This document shows, piece after piece, positions 4,624 through 14,673 of a stretch of DNA of 14,673 nucleotides. A program made the translations under genes and the position numbers. The notes below the pieces were generated by a model. That model was not told the DNA's origin, did no database searches, and saw only the letters and a list, made by a program, of their open reading frames with translations. The stretch is from Candidatus Mcinerneyibacteriota bacterium. Its GTDB lineage: Bacteria > Macinerneyibacteriota > Macinerneyibacteria > Macinerneyibacteriales > DSCS01. Each line of letters opens with the position of its first letter. The stretch's first letter is position 1. The stretch spans positions 1-14,673 of the forward strand of contig JAFGWL010000034.1 of the NCBI GenBank assembly GCA_016937175.1, read 5' to 3'.

Positions 4624-5505
4624 TTATTCACTCTTTTTCCCCCCTCGGGGGTGACACTTCTGATAGACCTTTTTCATCGTCTCCATGGTCACATGGGTAT
4701 AGACCTGTGTGGTGGACAGGGAACTGTGGCCCAAAAGCTCCTGGACCATTCTGAGGTCAGCTCCTCTCTCCAGAAGATGAGTTGCAAAAGAATGGCGGAT
4801 CTTATGGGGGGTGATATGTTTGGCAAAAGCCATGGAATAGAGGGCATGGTCGAGAATACGGCGGATATCCCTCTCCTGAAGGGGGCGCTTGCGCAAACTC
4901 AGAAAAATCCTTTCCTCTTCTGAAGAGCGGACATCCAGGTAGCGGCTAAGAAGCCGGAAAGCCCTCTCATGGACCGGGGAAAGGCGCTCTTTTCCCCCTT
5001 TTCCCATGATACGCACAAGGCGGTCTTCAAAACGGATATCCTCTCTTTTCAGCCCGACAAGTTCTCCCACACGCATCCCCGTTGCATAGAGAAGTTCCAA
5101 AATCGTTTTGTCACGGAGCTCTTTTTCTGTCGTCTCAGGCAGAGAGTTCAGAAGAAGGGCCATCTCCTCCATTGTTAGAAAATCGGGAAGATGACGGAAA
5201 GTCTTTGCTGATGTGATATGAACTGAAGGATCGCTCTCCAAATGGCCTTCCCGAATATGATAATGAAAAAAACTCCTGATAGCTGAGATCTTTCTGTTGA
5301 TGGTAGTCCGTGCTCTGTCGATATCGTAAAGATGTTCCATAAAGGATCTGATATCCAGAGGGGTTACTTCGTAACAGGGTTTTTCGATAAACCTGAAAAA
5401 CTCCAGAAGGTCGTTTCTGTAATTGATGACAGTATGGGAGGAGTATCCCCTTTCCGTTTCGCAATATCGCAAAAACTCCTCGACAGGCCCTTCAGGATTC
5501 TTCAT
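4624..5505 (-). CDS. xerC: Site-specific tyrosine recombinase XerC
   Basis: Tyrosine recombinase that, normally with XerD, resolves chromosome dimers at dif. From ATG at 5505 it has 293 residues, close to the XerC/XerD norm. The N-terminal SAM-like core-binding domain includes EEFLRYCETERGYSSHTVINY. The catalytic set is complete: Arg145 (ATGMRVGEL), Lys169 (MGKGGKER), His234 and Arg237 (TPHKIRHSFATHLL), His260 (LLGHSSLS) and the nucleophile Tyr269 (TTQVYTHV). The spacing equals that known for E. coli XerD. A longer frame begins at 5568 with 21 basic residues inside topA, but the homology starts near the internal Met, so I prefer 5505; the weak Shine-Dalgarno site (GGAGAAAG) suits coupling. 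The gene overlaps topA by 14 bases and precedes hslV. This context argues for the housekeeping enzyme, not a phage integrase. Confidence 0.93.
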   Translation of the reverse strand: MKNPEGPVEEFLRYCETERGYSSHTVINYRNDLLEFFRFIEKPCYEVTPLDIRSFMEHLYDIDRARTTINRKISAIRSFFHYHIREGHLESDPSVHITSAKTFRHLPDFLTMEEMALLLNSLPETTEKELRDKTILELLYATGMRVGELVGLKREDIRFEDRLVRIMGKGGKERLSPVHERAFRLLSRYLDVRSSEEERIFLSLRKRPLQERDIRRILDHALYSMAFAKHITPHKIRHSFATHLLERGADLRMVQELLGHSSLSTTQVYTHVTMETMKKVYQKCHPRGGKKSE

Positions 5506-7690
5506 AAGTACAGTCTTTCTCCGAACAGGCGACCTTTTTTCCCTTTTCAACCAGGATCCCCTTTTCACATTGGGGACATCTCTCCCCTGTAGGTTTGTTC
5601 CAGCTTACAAACTCACAATCCGGGTAACGGCTGCATCCATAGAAAAGGCGCCCTTTCCGTGTGCGTTTCACCACGACATCCCCTTTCCCGCAAACGGGAC
5701 AGGTGATGCCTGTCTTGTTCTCGACCTTTTTTGTGTAGCGGCACTCAGGATAATTGGAGCAGGCGATGAACTTTCCGTACCTTCCCTGTTTCATCACCAG
5801 GTCCCCGCCGCATTGGGGACACTTTTCTCCTGTCAGGTCTCCTGTTGTATCGGGGACGATCTCCCCATTTTCCATACGGAAGTTCATCGTGTTCTTGCAT
5901 TCGGGATAGCCGCTGCAGGCCAGAAACTTTCCGTTTCTGCCCCATTTGACCACCATAGGCTTTCCGCACTTTTCGCAGACAAGAGAGGTCTCTTCCACAT
6001 TTTCCTCTTTGAGGGCGGGAAGTATCTTTTCAACCTCTTTCAGCCATGCTGTCAGTTCTCTGTGAAACTCCTCAAGGATTGCTTTATGTTCTGCCTCTCC
6101 GCTTTCGATCCGGTCAAGGTCCTCCTCCATATGGCTGGTAAATGCATAATCTACGATTTTTGGAAAGAGCTTGACCAGGTAATCAGTCACGGTGATGCCC
6201 AGGTCTGTAGCCTTGAGTTTCTTTGAATCACGCTCTACATAGCGACGGCTGATAAGGACGGAGATGATAGAAGCATACGTCGACGGACGCCCGATACCCA
6301 TGGATTCCAGTTTTTTTACCAGGGTGGCATCTGTATAATAAGGGGGCGGAGAGGTTTCCTTCTCTTCGCTGAAGACTTTATCGGGATTGACAACGCTGCC
6401 CAACGGATACCGGCTGAGGTCGAGTTCAACCTCGTCTCTCTGCCCGAAGGTATAGACCTTTTCAAATCCTTCAAATGTCCGTCTGCTCCCTGTAGCCTCA
6501 AAGAGTGTCCGTCCGTTCTCCAGATGGAGCACTGAGTTTATATAGCGGGCCGGCATCATCTGGGATGCGACAAAACGAGTCCAGATCAGTCTGTAAAGGC
6601 GGTAAAGGTCCTTTTCCATATGTCCCTGGACCTCATCGGGAGTAAGAGACAGAAGAGTGGGGCGGATAGCTTCATGAGCGTCCTGGATCTTGTTCCCTTT
6701 CTTTTTTCCGTAAAAGTTCGGTTTTTCGGGACAATAATTTGCCCCGTATTTATCCTGGATGAAGGCACGGGCCATATTCAGGGCTTCTCCTGAGACTCGG
6801 AGAGAATCAGTCCGCATATAAGTGATCAGTCCCGCATTTCCCGAGGGAAGCGGGATTCCTTCATAAAGGCGCTGGGCCAATGTCATGGTCTTCCGGGCTG
6901 AGAACCCCAGACGGTTATAAGCTTCCTGCTGAAGAGTGCTCGTACGGAAGGGCGGAAGAGGCCTCCGCGGGCTCTCCTTCTCTTCTGCTTTGACGACAGT
7001 GAACTCCCCCTGCCGGATCTCGCTGAGGAGTTCCTCCAGCAGAGCCTTGTCCCTGATATCCGCCTTTTTGCCGTCTATCTTGATCAGTTTTGCTTTTATG
7101 CCTTCAAAGATACAGAAGATCTCCCAATAGGTCTCCACGCGGAAACCGCGGATCTCCTTTTCTCTCTCGACCACAAGGCGGAGAGCGGCTGACTGGACAC
7201 GCCCGGCTGACAACCCCTTATACAAGATACGCCATAAGACAGGGCTGATCTTATAACCCACCAGACGGTCCAGAATACGGCGTGTCTGCTGGGAGTAGAC
7301 CATATCCATGTCAATATCGGTCAGCTCTTCCAGAGCCTGGAGTATCCCTGTATCGGTGATCTCGTTGAAACGGGCTCGCTGGACAATAATATCGCGGCCT
7401 TCAAGTTTTGACTTCACATGCCATGCGATGGCCTCTCCCTCCCGGTCGGGGTCGGTGGCGATGATCACCCTTTCTTTAGAGGCGGCCTTGGAGATGATCT
7501 CCTTGATGATCGGGCCCTTCCCCTTGATTGTAACATATTGAGGTTCCAGAGTCTCTTCATCTATCCCCAGTTTTGACTTGGGAAGGTCTATAACATGTCC
7601 AACAGTCGCTGTCACATCATAGTTTTTCCCGACGATTTTTTTGATGGTCTTTACTTTAGTGGGCGATTCCACAATAATCAGGCTTTTCAT
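5492..7690 (-). CDS. topA: DNA topoisomerase I (type IA), with four C-terminal zinc-ribbon motifs
   Basis: Relaxes negative supercoils by single-strand passage. The protein has 732 residues. The Toprim domain starts at MKSLIIVESPTKVKTIKKIV (Glu8) and holds the metal-binding acidic motif ATDPDREGEAIAW with Asp80, Asp82 and Glu84. The strand-cleaving tyrosine is Tyr291 in GLITYMRTDS. Other conserved stretches are SAGRVQSAALRLVVERE (161-177) and GIGRPSTYASII (465-476). Four Cys4 motifs follow: Cys572/575/592/598, 624/627/644/650, 664/667/686/692, and a shorter one, 705/708/722/727. The start overlaps the stop of the RseC-like gene as ATGA. In many bacteria dprA precedes topA, but here two small membrane protein genes do. 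The last 14 bases overlap xerC. There is no sign of disruption. Confidence 0.98.
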   Translation of the reverse strand: MKSLIIVESPTKVKTIKKIVGKNYDVTATVGHVIDLPKSKLGIDEETLEPQYVTIKGKGPIIKEIISKAASKERVIIATDPDREGEAIAWHVKSKLEGRDIIVQRARFNEITDTGILQALEELTDIDMDMVYSQQTRRILDRLVGYKISPVLWRILYKGLSAGRVQSAALRLVVEREKEIRGFRVETYWEIFCIFEGIKAKLIKIDGKKADIRDKALLEELLSEIRQGEFTVVKAEEKESPRRPLPPFRTSTLQQEAYNRLGFSARKTMTLAQRLYEGIPLPSGNAGLITYMRTDSLRVSGEALNMARAFIQDKYGANYCPEKPNFYGKKKGNKIQDAHEAIRPTLLSLTPDEVQGHMEKDLYRLYRLIWTRFVASQMMPARYINSVLHLENGRTLFEATGSRRTFEGFEKVYTFGQRDEVELDLSRYPLGSVVNPDKVFSEEKETSPPPYYTDATLVKKLESMGIGRPSTYASIISVLISRRYVERDSKKLKATDLGITVTDYLVKLFPKIVDYAFTSHMEEDLDRIESGEAEHKAILEEFHRELTAWLKEVEKILPALKEENVEETSLVCEKCGKPMVVKWGRNGKFLACSGYPECKNTMNFRMENGEIVPDTTGDLTGEKCPQCGGDLVMKQGRYGKFIACSNYPECRYTKKVENKTGITCPVCGKGDVVVKRTRKGRLFYGCSRYPDCEFVSWNKPTGERCPQCEKGILVEKGKKVACSEKDCTYEES

Positions 7691-8097
7691 AAATCACTCT
7701 TCTCTTTTTGAAGGGGGCTGACAAGGATCTTCTCTCGGTGGTTGAGACGACGTCCCGCTGCCCTGACCAGGGCCAGGCTCACAATAAAAAAAAGCGCTGC
7801 TCCCCCTACCCCTCCGCTCTCTCCCACATGGGGGAAAAGGAGAGTCCCTAAAACATAGCCTCCCAGGAGGAAGATGAGCGGCAGGCCGTAGACTAATCCT
7901 ATGAGAAGAGAAGGCGCCATCGTGGAACTCACCGTGACAGCATCTCCCTTTCGGACTCCGCGGGGCATGGATTCCACAGGCAGCTCTATCTCCCGGGCTG
8001 CATCACAAAGGCGGCAATGCAGGCAAGCCTCATCGGGATAGACTCTGAGCAGGGCCTTTGTCCCGGTTACCTCCAGCACAATCCCCTTTTGCTCCAT
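7687..8097 (-). CDS. RseC/MucC family (SoxR-reducing system type) inner membrane protein
   Basis: A protein of 136 residues with a cytosolic N-terminal half and two membrane segments. The start GIVLEVTGTKALLRV, the cysteine cluster CLHCRLC (Cys25, Cys28, Cys31) and GVRKGDAVTVSS match the RseC/MucC pattern. Hydrophobic segments are SLLIGLVYGLPLIFLLGGYV and a second one around ALFFIVSLALV. Known relatives modulate sigma-E signalling (RseC, MucC) or belong to the SoxR-reducing/Rnf electron-transfer context, and the cysteines may bind an iron-sulfur cluster. Neither rse nor rnf genes are visible here, so the role is open. Two adjacent ATGs (8100 and 8097) are possible. GAGGAG lies one base from the first and four from the second, so I prefer 8097. 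Both overlap the stop of the preceding gene, and the stop overlaps the topA start. Confidence 0.78.
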   Translation of the reverse strand: MEQKGIVLEVTGTKALLRVYPDEACLHCRLCDAAREIELPVESMPRGVRKGDAVTVSSTMAPSLLIGLVYGLPLIFLLGGYVLGTLLFPHVGESGGVGGAALFFIVSLALVRAAGRRLNHREKILVSPLQKEKSDL

Positions 8098-8630
8098 CAT
8101 ACTCCTCTTCTTTTAAAAAAGCCCATGACGACTCCCAGAGCCACAGACCAGAGAGCTGCCAGTCCGATCCGGTAATCTTCGGGAAGGAGAAAGGTCACAG
8201 TATGTGCCGGGATCCAGAACCAGAGAAGGGTCATAAAGGATTTCTCAAGCCCTGCGAACCCTTTTGTCTTCATGATCAGATTATCCGTGACACGATGAAA
8301 GGCCATCATCTGGGGGCCGAAAAGGGTATTCATGGAGACAGAGACAAAGAAGGCCTTCCCGGGACCGGAACGGAAAAAGGTGCCGATCATCCCCTCTTCT
8401 CCCAGAGCAGAGGCAAAACCCACAAAACCCGTAAAGGCGTATTTGATGATAAGGCCCAGAACTCCCCATGCGGCCATTTTTAAAAGAAACTGAAAGCCTG
8501 TCATGACCCGAAAAGGATTCTTCCCTGCAATATACAGGCCCAGACATTCGCCGGCCATGCCCAGGATAAAAAACTGAATAAAAGCCGACAAAAGGGTATG
8601 TGTATGGACAAAATGGCTATAGCTTTCCAC
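8097..8630 (-). CDS. Polytopic membrane protein, Mpv17/PMP22-like (tentative), GTG start
   Basis: A protein of 177 residues with about four hydrophobic segments (roughly 12-35, 46-75, 93-112 and 134-172), ending in FFKRRGV. The C-terminal part FWIPAHTVTFLLPEDYRIG plus a tryptophan follows the eukaryotic Mpv17/PMP22 pattern W-x-P...F..P...R......W (Trp139, Pro141, Phe147, Pro150, Arg154, Trp161). FGPQMMAFHR (from residue 104) resembles that family's GP...WY motif. The match is from memory and short, so the family call is tentative. Function is unknown; Mpv17 relatives are thought to form channels in organelle membranes. An in-frame TTG at 8681 lacks a ribosome binding site and overlaps the previous gene, whereas GTG 8630 has GGAGG five bases upstream. 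It lies 40 bases after the giant gene and overlaps the RseC-like gene. Confidence 0.7.
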   Translation of the reverse strand: MESYSHFVHTHTLLSAFIQFFILGMAGECLGLYIAGKNPFRVMTGFQFLLKMAAWGVLGLIIKYAFTGFVGFASALGEEGMIGTFFRSGPGKAFFVSVSMNTLFGPQMMAFHRVTDNLIMKTKGFAGLEKSFMTLLWFWIPAHTVTFLLPEDYRIGLAALWSVALGVVMGFFKRRGV

Positions 8631-8635
8631 AATCA

Positions 8636-8640
8636 CCTCC
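8636..8640 (-). promoter_or_regulatory. Ribosome binding site for the GTG start at 8630
   Basis: GGAGG, five bases before GTG on the minus strand (GGAGGTGATTGTG). It decides the start of the Mpv17-like gene and removes 17 poorly supported N-terminal residues. Confidence 0.85.
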
Positions 8641-8670
8641 ACTGATGATAAACACAATAGCAGGAGAATA

Positions 8671-11600
8671 TCATTCGTCAAGGATGTTCCCGGACAAAGA
8701 GCGGAGATGCCCCATGATCAGGCGGGAGACGATGGAGAGGAGATTCGCCTCGACATAGGTATACTCCTTCTTCTCCATACGGCTTGACAAGTAGAGTTTC
8801 AGCTTGACTTTACCCTCGTCCACGACCTGGATCAAGTCGGAATGGAGTCCCTTTTTCCCCTCTTCATACTTCCAGTTCACCGCGATCAGAGTGTCCTCGA
8901 TCCTGGCTGCATGTTCTATGTATTTTTCGATGGTCCTTATCTCGGGGTCACGATATTCGTAACCCTTTCCTCCGACCTCAAAGGAGAAATCGATGTAGTC
9001 ATAGTCCACAAACCGGCTGATCATCCCCAGCATGGTATTAAAAAAGATTTGCGGGGTTCCCGGGTCGAGCATGGTCAGTTCGATGATATTCCTTATGATA
9101 TCTTCGGTCAGAGCAATATCCCCCGTCACAATCCCCGCAAGAATGTCATGTTTTCCCTTGTAAAGGCCGTATTTTTCCTCCCAGAGGACAACGGGATGGT
9201 GGTTTTTTTTAGCTGCGTTCAAAGCTGCGATCCCCTTCGCCAGGACGATATCGGCTTTCTCCCCGTGGTCGGGGATATAACTGAGCCCTATACTGACAGT
9301 AGCTCCGTGCTCAGCCAGCAAAGGATCCTCTTTGATAAGCTTGGCCAGATGCTCTGCCAGCTCAACCAGGCGTCCCTTGGATACACGGGAATGAGCCACG
9401 GCGAACTCCTCTCCCATATACCGGCCTATGATATCGTTTGATTTAGCGTATTCCTTAATGATCTCTGCAACATGTTTTATAATACGGTCTCCCTGAATCT
9501 CACCATACTTTTTATTGATCTCTGACATATGGTCGATATCGATGAGCATAAATCCCAGTGTCTCATCCTTTTTCCTCTGGCTGATCCTTTTTTTCAGGGT
9601 ATTTAAAAAGAAATACCTGGTCATGACCCCCGTCAGGGGACAGAGAATGATCTCGTCCCGCAGCTCCCTGTAGCGCAGAAGGATGCTCATATACTGGACC
9701 AGCGGAAAGATAAACTCCACAAGGTCCTTCTGGATGTTGTTGCAATACTTTTTAGTATCCAGATAGAGCAGCCCCCGCACAGTATCCTGAAGAAGCCTGT
9801 TCCGGAGATCCCCCTCCTCAGGGTCTTCGGTAAAACCGAAATCGACAATGGGAAAGAGGCCGGCGGTGACGATAGATGAAGAGAAATGAGTATAATTCTT
9901 GACCCTGATATGACGCGGAGACCTGACCCCCGATGCCAGCAGGTCATAGCGGTATTCATCATCATCATAGAGGGCCCGTTTCACCTCTTCAAAGAGAGGC
10001 TTATAACGGTCTGCCCCGTCTTTGACAAAGAGGGTGATCCTGTCAGCCCGGGCGAAATCCATGATGAAACGCAAAGCGGTCTTTATATTCTCATCGATCC
10101 CGGTAAAATCATATTTCCAGGCTTCGATAAGCTGAAGCATCTCTCTTCTGAAAAACCTGAAGGAGTTGCCGGTATACTCGTCAAACCAGAATTTTTTGAT
10201 CACAGGGAAAGTGATTCGTGCCACGGGAAGCCGGAGGCGCTGAGCGACCGCTTTCTTTGTATCCAGAATATCACGGCAGAGGCTGGTCTTCTGGTAAAAA
10301 GCGATATACCCCTTGGGAAAGTTACTTTTGATGTGCTGCTCATAAAAGAGGATATCCGTCAGGATCTCATAAAGCCTGAAATTGTACTCTTTTTTCTCAT
10401 AAAGCGTCGACAGTTCCAGAAGGATCTTTAAAATACGGCTGTTGTTTTTTTCTTTTTTGTAACGGGCCAGAAGGCCTTCAAGGATCTCGATCTTCTCTTC
10501 ATCGTTTTGAATAAAAGGGATCCCTGCATACTCAAAATCGATATCGCCCAGCTCGGCTCCTGACGTCTCTTTGAGACGTATCAGCTTACTGAAGAGTCTC
10601 TTGGCTTCTGTCTTTTTCCCCCTATGGATATAGAGGATCCTGACTTTTTTGAGCATGGCGTCAAAGAACTCATAATTATAGACGTGATGTTTTTCGCACT
10701 CTTCGGCGACTTTCTCATAATAGGTGAGGGCCTGCGAAAAACGCCTCCAGGAGTAGTAGATATCTCCGTTATTGGAATAGTATTGGACAAGGTACTGCCA
10801 GTAGTTAATGGACCTGGCACTCTTTTTCATAAGCGAACTCAGAAAACGCGCTTTTTTAAAGTCCCCCATCTGTGTGACAATGGCAATAAGCTGGTCGAGA
10901 ACGACCAGATAGCGTCTCTTATCCTCTTTTTTGACATACCGCATGGCTTCTGCAATAGTCGTGTAAGCTTCCTTATAGTAAAAATTGTCTGCATAAAGCT
11001 CGGCAATATTCGACAGAGGGACCACAATACTTGTCTCATCCCCGGCCCTTTTCCCCAGGTTGACCGACTTGTTCAACTCATGGATGATCGCTTCATAAGA
11101 ATAACCGATATAATATTTCGCACTGGCAATATTATTATGCGCCTTGATCTGGTCTCTGTAGCTTCCTGTCTCACGGGCTTTTTCCAGGGCTTTCTCGTAA
11201 AAAGCCTGGGCTCGTGTGGCATCCCCTGAGTTAAGAGAGACATTCCCAAGGATAAAATAGGCCTGGATGGCAACGGCTCCTGTCTCCTCAGCCTCATCCC
11301 CTGTCCCGAGCCCTTCCAGAACCCTTTCACCAAGCTCCCGGACTTTCTCGTAGTCTCCCCTGGTGTAAAAATCGGTAGCTGCAGAAAGGGCAAGCTGATA
11401 TAAAAACCAGGGCATCCCTCCGCGGATATTCTTCAGCAAGAGGTCGCCCTGTCCGTTCTTTTCATGGGGAGCAGAGAGAAGATAGTCTATAAAAGCGAGA
11501 AGAAAAGCTACATAAGGCTGCTTCTGTTGGGCGAGGACAGACCTTTTCATACGTCTGAGAAGAGTTGTGGCCCCGGCACCTCGACCCACAAAAGGCTCCA

Positions 11601-13713
11601 GGACACGGACAGCTAGATAAAGAGAGAAGAGATCTTTCTCTTTTTCTGACCATAAGGAGACAACCTGCCCTTTATTTGAGATAAACTCACGAAGCCCCTT
11701 CTCATCATTGAGATGAAGCATAAGATGGAGACGTGTCTGGAGATAGATCCTCTTTTCAGACTCTGAGATCTTCTTTTCCAGCCTGGCCAGATAGGACCTG
11801 AATTGATCCAGGTCATGCCGCCCCAGATTATAAAGCTTCAACAAACGGGCCATATGCTCAAGTGCTTTTTTCGTCTCGCCCTGCTCCATATGGATCTGTA
11901 TCAGGTTCATCACCCGAATGGGGTCCGCCTGCTTTTGTTCCAGGAATGCAATAAAATTATCACGGAACCGGGGCGTCTCGTGGATCGTACCCTTCTTAAA
12001 GTAGTCGTTGATATCATCACGGACAATACGGTAATAGGCTGTCTCTTTTTCCCATATCTCATCGATATAGGCATGGGTCCGGAGAGACCCCAGAAAACCA
12101 AGGGTCTCCTCATGGGAAGAGTGGATCAGCTGGACAAGGTCGTCGAGTTTCAGTATTTTTCGACTGTGGCTGAGATACCAGAGGATCTCCTTTTCTTCTC
12201 TCCGGAGGTACTGGATCCTCTTCTCCAAAGCATCATCTGCGAGAAGATACGCGCTCTCTTCCTCGACTCCCGCTGAATTGATGAACATAATCTGATTTCT
12301 GTCATCGATGGACAAGAGATTCTTTTCCACCATCTTCTGGATAAAACTGATGATCTTTTCTGCCTGGGTGATCTGATAGGTATTAAGAAGATTTTCCAGA
12401 GGTTCCAGGGAAAGTTCTCCATCGAAGAGATGATGCAGCATCGCTCTTATTTCGCTTGAAGAGAGAGCCAGATATTCCTTGGTCACGATCTCAAAATGAG
12501 GGTCTTTGTAAAAGACATGGAACCTATTCTTTTCCATTCCCGCATCAAAAAGCAGGACGATATTCCCCCGATGCTTTACATGCAGCATCAGGTTGATAAA
12601 CCGGTTGATCTTGTCATCCATCCCCACCAGGTTCTGAATATGGAGGACGACCTTTTTTGTGATGGAAAAATCAAAGAGGAGTTCCAGCAGATAGGACTGG
12701 ACATTTAAAAGATACTGCTCGTTCAGCGTTTCATTATAAAGGGCAAACTGACGGTTGATGATCTTATTCAGGTCCTCACGGAGTTCATAATGGCTAAGGC
12801 AGTCAAAGAGGTATTTGAGAAAATCATAAAAATTCTGCATGATGATCTCAATCTTGAGGTATTTTTCAAATTTGAGATATTCAAGAAAATCCCGGATCAC
12901 CGTCTCTTTGAGAGAACCCGATTCACCGAAGAAGATAAAAGCGATCTTGGAATTCCGCTTGGCTTGGAATAAATATAGGTTCTGCAGGATCTCCGAATGA
13001 AGAGAGAGTCCCATCTCATAGGTCGTCCACTCCTTTTTTTCATAAAAATAGGAGTATCGGTTCTCTCTCAAAAACCCCTTTTCCTCAAGTCTGTCCAGAA
13101 ACTCTTCTAGCGAAGCCCCATCAAAAGAGGAGAGAAAGCCCGCATAATCCCTCAACAGAGGACTTTTCCCCGGAGAAGAATCCAACAGTTCCCCCATGTG
13201 ACGGCATAAGCCTTGAAAAGCCTCGCACGAAAACGAATCCTTCGTCTTCAGGTTAAAAAGATCTGCTTTTAAACGTTTTTTCTGAAGAAGGATCAGCTGT
13301 TCATCCGGAAACTCATAGATAAAGGTCTTCTGTTTGTAGAGGAAAAAGATAAGTTTCCAGAACTGATTCATGATATGGAGGATCTCCTCTTCTTTGAGGC
13401 TGCCGTTCTTCACAAGAGCGGGAAAGTTCTCCACCGGGGCATATTCACTTATCAGGATATAGTAATTGGAATAGGTGATCTTCCCGTCGAAAAACCAGAC
13501 TTTCTCATAATTGTAATATTCCAGAAGAGAGGGATGCTTCAGGCGGATAAGCTGATGATAAGAGGAATATCTCCCCAGCACATCACGCATGGTATCGAAG
13601 ATCCGCAGAAGGACTGTCTTGCTTTTGAAAAGATCCCGGGCCTGGTAAAGGGAAGTCCCGGACATTTCGGTCATCTTTTTTTTAAGCTCGTACCGGTCAT
13701 TAATGATCTTCAT
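8671..13713 (-). CDS. Giant signalling protein: pseudokinase, degenerate STAND-like ATPase, TPR, GAF, GGDEF (MGEEF), C-terminal GAF-like
   Basis: A 1680-residue protein with no signal peptide or membrane segment seen, so probably cytosolic. Residues 7-160 resemble a protein kinase N-lobe (RYELKKKMTEMSGTSLYQARD), but the VAIK lysine is Arg37 and no HRD or DFG motif is visible. Residues 235-500 look like an AAA/STAND ATPase, yet the Walker A site reads GESGSLKE (263-270), without GK[ST], and the Walker B acidic pair is absent (VVLHIQN). About 590-1120 are helical TPR-type repeats, clearest at 815-925. About 1200-1350 look like GAF. Residues 1355-1515 are GGDEF with signature MGEEF (1433-1437); metal ligands Asp1392 and Glu1435 and guanine contacts Asn1400 and Asp1409 remain. 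The last 165 residues may be another GAF. ATG 13713 has AAGGA four bases upstream. The order recalls the large kinase-ATPase-TPR-GAF signalling proteins. Output and ligand are unknown. Confidence 0.88.
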   Translation of the reverse strand: MKIINDRYELKKKMTEMSGTSLYQARDLFKSKTVLLRIFDTMRDVLGRYSSYHQLIRLKHPSLLEYYNYEKVWFFDGKITYSNYYILISEYAPVENFPALVKNGSLKEEEILHIMNQFWKLIFFLYKQKTFIYEFPDEQLILLQKKRLKADLFNLKTKDSFSCEAFQGLCRHMGELLDSSPGKSPLLRDYAGFLSSFDGASLEEFLDRLEEKGFLRENRYSYFYEKKEWTTYEMGLSLHSEILQNLYLFQAKRNSKIAFIFFGESGSLKETVIRDFLEYLKFEKYLKIEIIMQNFYDFLKYLFDCLSHYELREDLNKIINRQFALYNETLNEQYLLNVQSYLLELLFDFSITKKVVLHIQNLVGMDDKINRFINLMLHVKHRGNIVLLFDAGMEKNRFHVFYKDPHFEIVTKEYLALSSSEIRAMLHHLFDGELSLEPLENLLNTYQITQAEKIISFIQKMVEKNLLSIDDRNQIMFINSAGVEEESAYLLADDALEKRIQYLRREEKEILWYLSHSRKILKLDDLVQLIHSSHEETLGFLGSLRTHAYIDEIWEKETAYYRIVRDDINDYFKKGTIHETPRFRDNFIAFLEQKQADPIRVMNLIQIHMEQGETKKALEHMARLLKLYNLGRHDLDQFRSYLARLEKKISESEKRIYLQTRLHLMLHLNDEKGLREFISNKGQVVSLWSEKEKDLFSLYLAVRVLEPFVGRGAGATTLLRRMKRSVLAQQKQPYVAFLLAFIDYLLSAPHEKNGQGDLLLKNIRGGMPWFLYQLALSAATDFYTRGDYEKVRELGERVLEGLGTGDEAEETGAVAIQAYFILGNVSLNSGDATRAQAFYEKALEKARETGSYRDQIKAHNNIASAKYYIGYSYEAIIHELNKSVNLGKRAGDETSIVVPLSNIAELYADNFYYKEAYTTIAEAMRYVKKEDKRRYLVVLDQLIAIVTQMGDFKKARFLSSLMKKSARSINYWQYLVQYYSNNGDIYYSWRRFSQALTYYEKVAEECEKHHVYNYEFFDAMLKKVRILYIHRGKKTEAKRLFSKLIRLKETSGAELGDIDFEYAGIPFIQNDEEKIEILEGLLARYKKEKNNSRILKILLELSTLYEKKEYNFRLYEILTDILFYEQHIKSNFPKGYIAFYQKTSLCRDILDTKKAVAQRLRLPVARITFPVIKKFWFDEYTGNSFRFFRREMLQLIEAWKYDFTGIDENIKTALRFIMDFARADRITLFVKDGADRYKPLFEEVKRALYDDDEYRYDLLASGVRSPRHIRVKNYTHFSSSIVTAGLFPIVDFGFTEDPEEGDLRNRLLQDTVRGLLYLDTKKYCNNIQKDLVEFIFPLVQYMSILLRYRELRDEIILCPLTGVMTRYFFLNTLKKRISQRKKDETLGFMLIDIDHMSEINKKYGEIQGDRIIKHVAEIIKEYAKSNDIIGRYMGEEFAVAHSRVSKGRLVELAEHLAKLIKEDPLLAEHGATVSIGLSYIPDHGEKADIVLAKGIAALNAAKKNHHPVVLWEEKYGLYKGKHDILAGIVTGDIALTEDIIRNIIELTMLDPGTPQIFFNTMLGMISRFVDYDYIDFSFEVGGKGYEYRDPEIRTIEKYIEHAARIEDTLIAVNWKYEEGKKGLHSDLIQVVDEGKVKLKLYLSSRMEKKEYTYVEANLLSIVSRLIMGHLRSLSGNILDE

Positions 13714-13721
13714 AAGTTCCT

Positions 13722-14673
13722 TTACAACGCCAGCCTGTAGATATGGACGATATCATGATAATCAAGCCGGCGGAAAGCTCCGATGATCCCGTAGAGATCG
13801 TTGATACTGGAGGCCATCTCCTCGAACTGCTCTGTCCCCACCTCTCTCTCACTTAAGCGGATAGGAAGCTGAAGGTTGCGGTAAAACTCTTCAAGCCTTC
13901 GGGCAAGCCCCTCAGGCGACCCTTCCTGGGTCTGAAAAAGGATCCGCTCCAGCCGGGCCATTCGGCCGTATTTGTCACTCTCGGCCACATAACGGATCCA
14001 GGCCGGGTAAAGGATGGAAAAAGTCTCGCCATGGATCAACCCATAGCGCGCGCTCAACTCGTGGCTCATCTTATGGACAGACCAATCTGTCTTTTTCCCC
14101 AGCCCCATAAGCCCGTTGAGGGCCACTGTAGAGGCCCACATGAGATTGGATCTGGCTTCGATATCCCTGCCGTCCCGAAAAGCACGGGGGCCCATTTCGA
14201 TGCAGATACGCAGGACAGCTTCGGTCATGTAGTCTGTAATGGCAGCTTCTACATCCGGAGAAAAATACTGTTCGAAAAGGTGAGCCATAATATCAGAGAC
14301 ACCCGCCGCAGTGTGACGGGGTGAAACAGTAAAGGTATATTCAGGGTCCATGATCGAAAACCTGGGAATGATCATCTCAGAGTGGATGGCGCACTTCTTT
14401 TTCTCTCCTTCATGGGTGATCACTGCATGCTCATTAGCTTCTGAACCTGTCGCGGCAAGGGTCAGGACCGTTCCCACTGGAAGAGCACGGGTAATGGGTT
14501 CGCGTCCTAAAAACATATTCCAGAGATCTCCTGTGGCATAAACACCTGCTGCGATGGCTTTGGCTGTATCGATGACGCTGCCTCCGCCCACGGCGAGGAT
14601 CAGGTCTGATCCCTGCTCCCTGGCCAGGCGCACTCCCTCTTTGACCCGCTGGAGAACGGGATTGGGCGCGACT
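13722..14673 (-). CDS. Iron/zinc-dependent alcohol (butanol) dehydrogenase, YqhD/BDH type; 5' end outside window
   Basis: NAD(P)H-dependent oxidoreductase of the iron-containing alcohol dehydrogenase family, expected to interconvert aldehydes and alcohols such as butanal and butanol in the cytosol. The window holds 316 codons; members have about 385-390, so roughly 70 N-terminal residues are missing. The frame is open to the edge, with VAPNPVLQRVKEG upstream of a GTG at 14633, so that GTG is not the start. Motifs seen are the cofactor site AVGGGSVIDTAKAIA and LTLAATGSEANEHAVI. The metal ligands are Asp127, His131, His200 and His214 counted in this fragment. Their spacing (4, 69, 14) equals that known for E. 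coli YqhD (Asp194, His198, His267, His281). FEQYFSP and HELSARYGLIHG are typical of the butanol dehydrogenase branch. The giant gene starts eight bases after its stop, so the two are probably co-transcribed. Confidence 0.94.
   Translation of the reverse strand, partial: VAPNPVLQRVKEGVRLAREQGSDLILAVGGGSVIDTAKAIAAGVYATGDLWNMFLGREPITRALPVGTVLTLAATGSEANEHAVITHEGEKKKCAIHSEMIIPRFSIMDPEYTFTVSPRHTAAGVSDIMAHLFEQYFSPDVEAAITDYMTEAVLRICIEMGPRAFRDGRDIEARSNLMWASTVALNGLMGLGKKTDWSVHKMSHELSARYGLIHGETFSILYPAWIRYVAESDKYGRMARLERILFQTQEGSPEGLARRLEEFYRNLQLPIRLSEREVGTEQFEEMASSINDLYGIIGAFRRLDYHDIVHIYRLAL

Follow-up and report, generated by a model that had tools for sequence, protein, structure and literature searches.

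We analysed a window of 14,673 nucleotides, which is the whole of contig C48 in the 1.88-Mb genome G000 of the phylum Mcinerneyibacteriota. The window contains the following genes and features, given in window coordinates and all on the minus strand.

13722–14672, minus: iron-containing alcohol dehydrogenase (Fe-ADH) gene, upstream of the large gene (Pfam ADH_Fe_C 2e-36)
8671–13713, minus: gene for a pseudokinase–pseudoSTAND–TPR–GAF–degenerate GGDEF–GAF protein, complete, ATG start, 1680 aa, uninterrupted ORF
13066–13713, minus: kinase-fold domain, residues 1–216 (AlphaFold pLDDT ~85, match to PknB 1o6y, hhalign)
13291–13323, minus: place of the HRD catalytic loop, residues 131–141, FIYEFPDEQLI (hhalign against FIHYDIKPSNV of intact kinases)
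12469–12963, minus: STAND ATPase core, residues 251–415 (hhalign, conservation)
12904–12927, minus: former Walker A motif, residues 263–270, GESGSLKE (motif comparison)
12019–12213, minus: winged-helix part of the STAND module, residues 501–565 (AlphaFold secondary structure and colinear hhalign)
10324–11373, minus: TPR superhelix, residues 781–1130 (Pfam TPR_12 2.1e-10 and TPR_2 4.4e-9, three stretches each)
9646–10104, minus: GAF-like domain 1, residues 1204–1356 (AlphaFold; hhalign to L076)
9178–9645, minus: degenerate GGDEF domain, residues 1357–1512 (Pfam 4.7e-26 over 1359–1505; model match to 3ign)
9403–9417, minus: signature MGEEF, residues 1433–1437 (comparison with orthologues and relatives)
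8674–9117, minus: GAF-like domain 2, residues 1533–1680 (AlphaFold; start aligned to the GAF_3 domain of L076)
8097–8681, minus: hydrophobic membrane-like protein, 194 aa, next gene, overlapping the stop of the large gene
7687–8100, minus: RseC/MucC family protein (Pfam RseC_MucC 6e-14)
5492–7690, minus: topA, after the RseC gene (gene order)

The locus and the domains of the encoded protein

The large gene is read from window position 13713 to 8671, and its frame is open throughout. The Fe-ADH gene ends 8 nt ahead of its ATG and is the same neighbour in genome G001; the two genes are likely to belong to the same operon. No Pfam family matched the 194-aa hydrophobic protein, a similar gene for which occupies the matching place in G001; no counterpart was found in G002. 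The order pseudoenzyme–RseC–topA is preserved in both G001 and G002, and the gene lies in a tight, conserved operon-like run consisting of the Fe-ADH gene (two genomes), the pseudoenzyme gene, the gene for the 194-aa protein (two genomes), the RseC gene, topA, xerC, and hslV. Its housekeeping neighbours are topA, xerC, hslV, rdgB, hrcA, grpE, and dnaK. Assignment to a phage-defence STAND system was set aside on the basis of these neighbours and of a PADLOC search that gave only weak kinase-type and weak TPR matches.

Our phylum sample consisted of three genomes, G000, G001, and G002. A contig search with the single protein gave no match; a query built from the orthologue alignment then matched relatives. 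Each of the two other genomes carries a single full-length orthologue upstream of topA at the matching locus, one with 70% identity (L052:5241-10280, in MAG SpSt-1200) and one with 37% identity (L053:125-5176, in Candidatus Mcinerneyibacterium aminivorans ARYD3).

By hhalign, the whole N-terminus of the three orthologues (residues 1–564) was colinear with intact kinase–AAA_16 proteins of other phyla (98.5%, E 1.5e-15), and the kinase part alone matched intact kinases at 97.4% (E 1.1e-11) and the STAND part alone at 92% (E 6.7e-7). The AlphaFold model of the N-terminus (610 residues) had a pLDDT of 84, and its kinase fold matched PknB 1o6y with a Z of 17.3 over 209 residues at 3.0 Å. Foldseek matches to Apaf-1 (7.2e-8) and ZAR1 (1e-7), which are multi-domain alignments with high rmsd, agree with the predicted STAND module. 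In the C-terminal model (561 residues, pLDDT 79), the GAF-like domains have an α/β fold and the GGDEF domain matched 3ign with a Z of 24.7 over 160 residues at 1.8 Å. The GAF-like domains on either side of the GGDEF domain align to the GAF–GGDEF–GAF region of L076, a protein of another phylum (hhalign 99.8%, 6.7e-29), which scores with Pfam GAF (2.3e-19) at the place of GAF-like domain 1 and has GAF_3 at the place of domain 2.

A preliminary description, made from the sequence alone, had proposed an uninterrupted 5-kb frame of 1680 residues joining kinase-like, ATPase-like, TPR, GAF, and GGDEF modules. The frame stands, on the minus strand, and profile–profile alignment, HMMs, and AlphaFold agree with the proposed order. 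GAF-like domain 2, absent from that description, is added. The folds for which it proposed profile searches were found by Pfam for GGDEF and TPR and by hhalign for kinase and STAND; Pfam GAF, however, gave no score in any of 15 family members, and the front half of the G000 copy diverges too far for Pfam, with Pkinase below the threshold there (4.5e-5 in the G001 orthologue).

Erosion of the GGDEF, kinase, and ATPase motifs

We compared the GGDEF domain of the three orthologues with that of 16 other proteins, consisting of 12 paralogues and 4 more distant relatives. The first signature residue is Met in all three orthologues (MG[DE]EF) and Gly in 16/16 comparison proteins. Off-consensus residues occur at positions 1358, 1397, 1401, 1405, 1424, and 1433 and at the GRN segment (1504–1506). 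In 3/3 orthologues, the Asp of the DxLT motif is replaced by Cys1358 and D1401 and H1405 are altered; K1397, present in 16/16 comparison proteins, is Ser or Thr in two orthologues and is retained in G002; and the GRN segment that follows K1502 is missing. By contrast, D1392, D1394, N1400, D1409, E1436, K1502, and an acidic residue at 1435 are retained in 3/3 orthologues, and the G002 orthologue still has an RxxD I-site. Reading these positions by way of PleD-type cyclases, we take D1392 and D/E1435 to be metal ligands and N1400 and D1409 to contact guanine, and the roles of the eroded positions are likewise assumed from established knowledge of this cyclase type. All 12 full-length paralogues compared keep GG[DE]E[FI], and none of the orthologue changes occurs in the sister paralogues; thus, the loss in the GGDEF domain is specific to the orthologue clade.

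The retained positions bear on a different reading, in which the domain remains an active diguanylate cyclase despite its atypical MG[DE]EF signature and the protein is a sensor-regulated cyclase with dead N-terminal modules. Some cyclases with an altered first Gly are active, the GGDEF region is among the best conserved parts of the protein (81% identity between G000 and G001), and its predicted fold is that of a normal GGDEF domain. As judged from residues, moreover, loss would not prove inactivity, with the metal and guanine positions and Lys1502 kept throughout and K1397 and RxxD kept in G002. However, the first Gly is fixed as Met, and this change is accompanied by the Cys1358, D1401, and H1405 changes in every orthologue, by the K1397 change in two of three, and by loss of the GRN segment, whereas the sister paralogues lack such changes. 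We therefore consider an atypical cyclase unlikely and prefer a GGDEF fold that has probably lost normal c-di-GMP synthesis.

Erosion is more extensive in the kinase fold, in which the glycine loop, VAIK Lys, αC Glu, HRD Asp, DFG, and APE are all gone except for Asp151. The place of the glycine loop (residues 15–20) reads TEMSGT, with AEEGNT and ETPYDF in the orthologues; the VAIK Lys is Arg37 in 3/3 orthologues; and the αC Glu is Ser, Ser, and Asn. The catalytic (HRD) loop, which reads FIYEFPDEQLI, has lost its H, D, K, and N, and the activation segment comprises ~10 residues compared to 33–45 in intact homologues, with no APE. Because the DFG column of the pseudoenzyme clade was shifted in the MAFFT alignment, it was placed by hhalign and by D151, which is invariant in 15/15 aligned family members. 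This residue, together with the invariance of R37 among the orthologues, is what might favour the idea that one of the N-terminal modules performs other chemistry, for example that the kinase fold moves a different group, as do other atypical kinase-like folds. No orthologue, however, has a glycine-rich loop, an αC Glu, or an HRD-type Asp or Asn, and few modules of the clade are less conserved than the kinase (24% of positions invariant), making such chemistry quite improbable.

The ATPase core supports the same non-catalytic reading. The place of Walker A is GESGSLKE in G000 and GDTSSLKE and GPEDSQKS in the orthologues, compared to GESGIGKS in the intact homologue L072, and the consensus GxxGxGK[ST] is absent from all three. 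The Walker B Asp aligns with Asn361, which is invariant in 3/3 orthologues. With these motifs missing, we rejected an annotation of the G000 copy as a working kinase or ATPase. Comparison thus shows that the folds are present but that all three orthologues lack residues on which phosphotransfer, ATP hydrolysis, and normal c-di-GMP synthesis depend.

Paralogues, conservation, and selection

Besides the pseudoenzyme, G000 encodes five or more full-length paralogues of 1471–1704 aa, giving a family of at least six; G001 and G002 each contain a set as well. The short activation segment (9–20 residues compared to 33–45, with no APE) and the missing P-loop are family-wide and, judging from the aligned sequences, are older than the orthologue clade. 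That clade is sister to the C10 group, which adjoins priA (support 95/95). C10 keeps the glycine loop, Lys, catalytic-loop Asp, and DFG; total loss of the kinase motifs is thus specific to the orthologue clade. Two proteins of 1473–1475 aa that have a short kinase, lack a P-loop, and end in GGDEF (L061:2618-7042, plus strand, and L070:3766-8184, minus strand) come from a different phylum, which extends the degenerate subfamily beyond Mcinerneyibacteriota. No full-length eukaryotic-like kinase was found in G000, G001, or G002, where Pkinase matches end at ~134–158 of 263 profile positions and fall mostly within the long paralogous family. Weak kinase matches also occur in proteins of 567–587 aa (G001:C49:7097-7543 and G002:C34:144250-144486), possibly a further relative without the long tail.

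Positions invariant among the three orthologues made up 60% of the STAND core (251–415), 34% of the TPRs, and 32% of the whole protein. The best other 165-aa window elsewhere in the protein reached 41%, making the dead ATPase core its most conserved stretch. In the C10 trio the corresponding values were 24% for STAND, 39% for the kinase, and 20% for the TPRs. This reverse pattern indicates that, in the orthologue clade, constraint has shifted away from the kinase and onto the TPRs and the dead ATPase core. Between G000 and G001, the overall pN/pS was 0.25, falling to 0.16 in the STAND and GGDEF regions, and topA gave 0.22. Because synonymous sites approach saturation, these values, given with identities in place of a formal dN/dS, are bounds.

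Both orthologues show the same losses, and the paralogues keep GGDEF motifs, which indicates erosion beyond chance; a species-specific accident was rejected because the losses are common to all three phylum genomes. The sequences compared show the pseudoenzyme to be under purifying selection, with the losses fixed in the phylum sample. A decaying paralogue heading towards a pseudogene, which would explain the disappearance of catalytic motifs from three modules and the free variation of the glycine-loop and P-loop places among orthologues, is so unlikely as to be negligible, because the 1680-codon frame is open in three genomes down to 37% identity, pN/pS is ~0.25, conservation peaks in the dead ATPase core, the replacement residues R37, N361, C1358, and M1433 are invariant, and the operon position is conserved.

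These comparisons bear out the proposal in the preliminary description that the kinase and ATPase signatures are eroded, and they extend it to GGDEF. Its idea of selection for something besides catalysis agrees with the fixed losses, the purifying selection, and the conservation of the dead ATPase core. The homologue alignment that it suggested as a check shows the catalytic losses recurring in both orthologues (70% and 37% identity); the alternative it named, a merely decaying copy, is contradicted by these shared losses and by the frame open in three genomes. Two of its suggestions are not supported: a working nucleotide-second-messenger domain at the C-terminus, given the MG[DE]EF signature and altered substrate positions, and an undescribed system, since the protein belongs, as a degenerate member, to a paralogous family with a published architecture that also exists intact in other phyla.

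Known relatives and proposed function

The domain order is already known, from intact homologues in other phyla and from published kinase–TPR–GGDEF and CP1 proteins. L076, from genome G107 of another phylum, has a kinase (9–272), AAA_16 (300–466), TPRs, GAF (1521–1675), GGDEF (1685–1837), and GAF_3 (from 1885); it is colinear with the pseudoenzyme at both ends by hhalign, and its full order, including both GAFs, is intact. Unlike the pseudoenzyme, it has a full-length kinase, a D-K-N catalytic loop, APE, the Walker A motif GAAGIGKS, and a GGDEF motif. A Clostridium thermocellum protein of 1826 aa with a kinase, 6 TPRs, and GGDEF (Krupa and Srinivasan, 2005, PMC1262709) shares the overall order and size, with the kinase N-terminal and GGDEF towards the C-terminus; the part of that paper dealing with it reports a kinase and does not describe comparable catalytic losses.

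Published CP1 pseudokinases, in which the kinase is fused to a COG3899 ATPase, often with FhlA/GAF or PAS, are found mainly in cyanobacteria and proteobacteria (PMC12599244). They likewise combine a cytosolic kinase fold, a predicted-ATPase/TPR module, and GAF-type sensors with variable erosion, a likeness that concerns domain order. Unlike CP1, the pseudoenzyme kinase shows near-total motif loss with the activation segment gone, and its ATPase and GGDEF modules are dead too. The text of the CP1 review makes no mention of GGDEF (PMC12599244), and our literature search found no paper linking COG3899 with GGDEF and none on Mcinerneyibacterium. As far as the compared sequences indicate, the new element is a set of orthologues that has all three modules (kinase, ATPase, and GGDEF) broken and in which conservation is highest in the dead ATPase core.

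We propose that the protein is a conserved, non-catalytic binding paralogue of the kinase–STAND–TPR–GAF–GGDEF family, a reading that draws on three orthologues and to which we assign a probability of about 0.7. It would work by binding because the folds and interaction surfaces are kept and the active sites are not. Partner proteins would dock on the TPRs and on the highly conserved STAND core, and the two GAF-like domains would bind ligand, which makes a ligand-sensing scaffold plausible. The degenerate GGDEF domain, with metal and guanine positions kept and the first Gly and GRN segment lost, may bind GTP or c-di-GMP without cyclising.

Degenerate GGDEF domains are known to act by interaction, as in the CdgI and PdeR heteromers (PMC5635695), and as nucleotide sensors, as in GTP sensing by FimX (PMC8846402). 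E. coli CdgI and P. aeruginosa FimX resemble the pseudoenzyme in having a GGDEF fold with a broken signature; they differ in lacking the kinase–STAND–TPR front half and, for FimX, in having an EAL domain. Because of these precedents, control of a sister cyclase is the leading candidate for output, and the pseudoenzyme would most probably tune its better-preserved sister C10 or the local c-di-GMP pool, through mixed dimers or sequestration. The choice of C10 or any other partner is tentative and has much less support than the non-catalytic binding role. It is possible, but not what we would expect, that the dead STAND core is a hydrolysis-independent ligand or partner module that controls better-preserved sister kinase–GGDEF proteins via the degenerate GGDEF domain, making the pseudoenzyme a regulatory subunit derived from a duplicated c-di-GMP synthase family.

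A multi-enzyme signalling protein that has lost three catalytic sites under strong selection offers a clean natural case, for which the better-preserved sister genes of its genome serve as internal controls. The conservation pattern points to the STAND core, rather than the kinase, as the working part, and pseudoenzymes may be a source of regulatory subunits for bacterial c-di-GMP networks. A search of the G000 genome gave no match to EAL or PilZ; it contains 14 GGDEF loci and 5 proteins with HD-GYP-type domains, and thus a c-di-GMP circuit exists in this organism.
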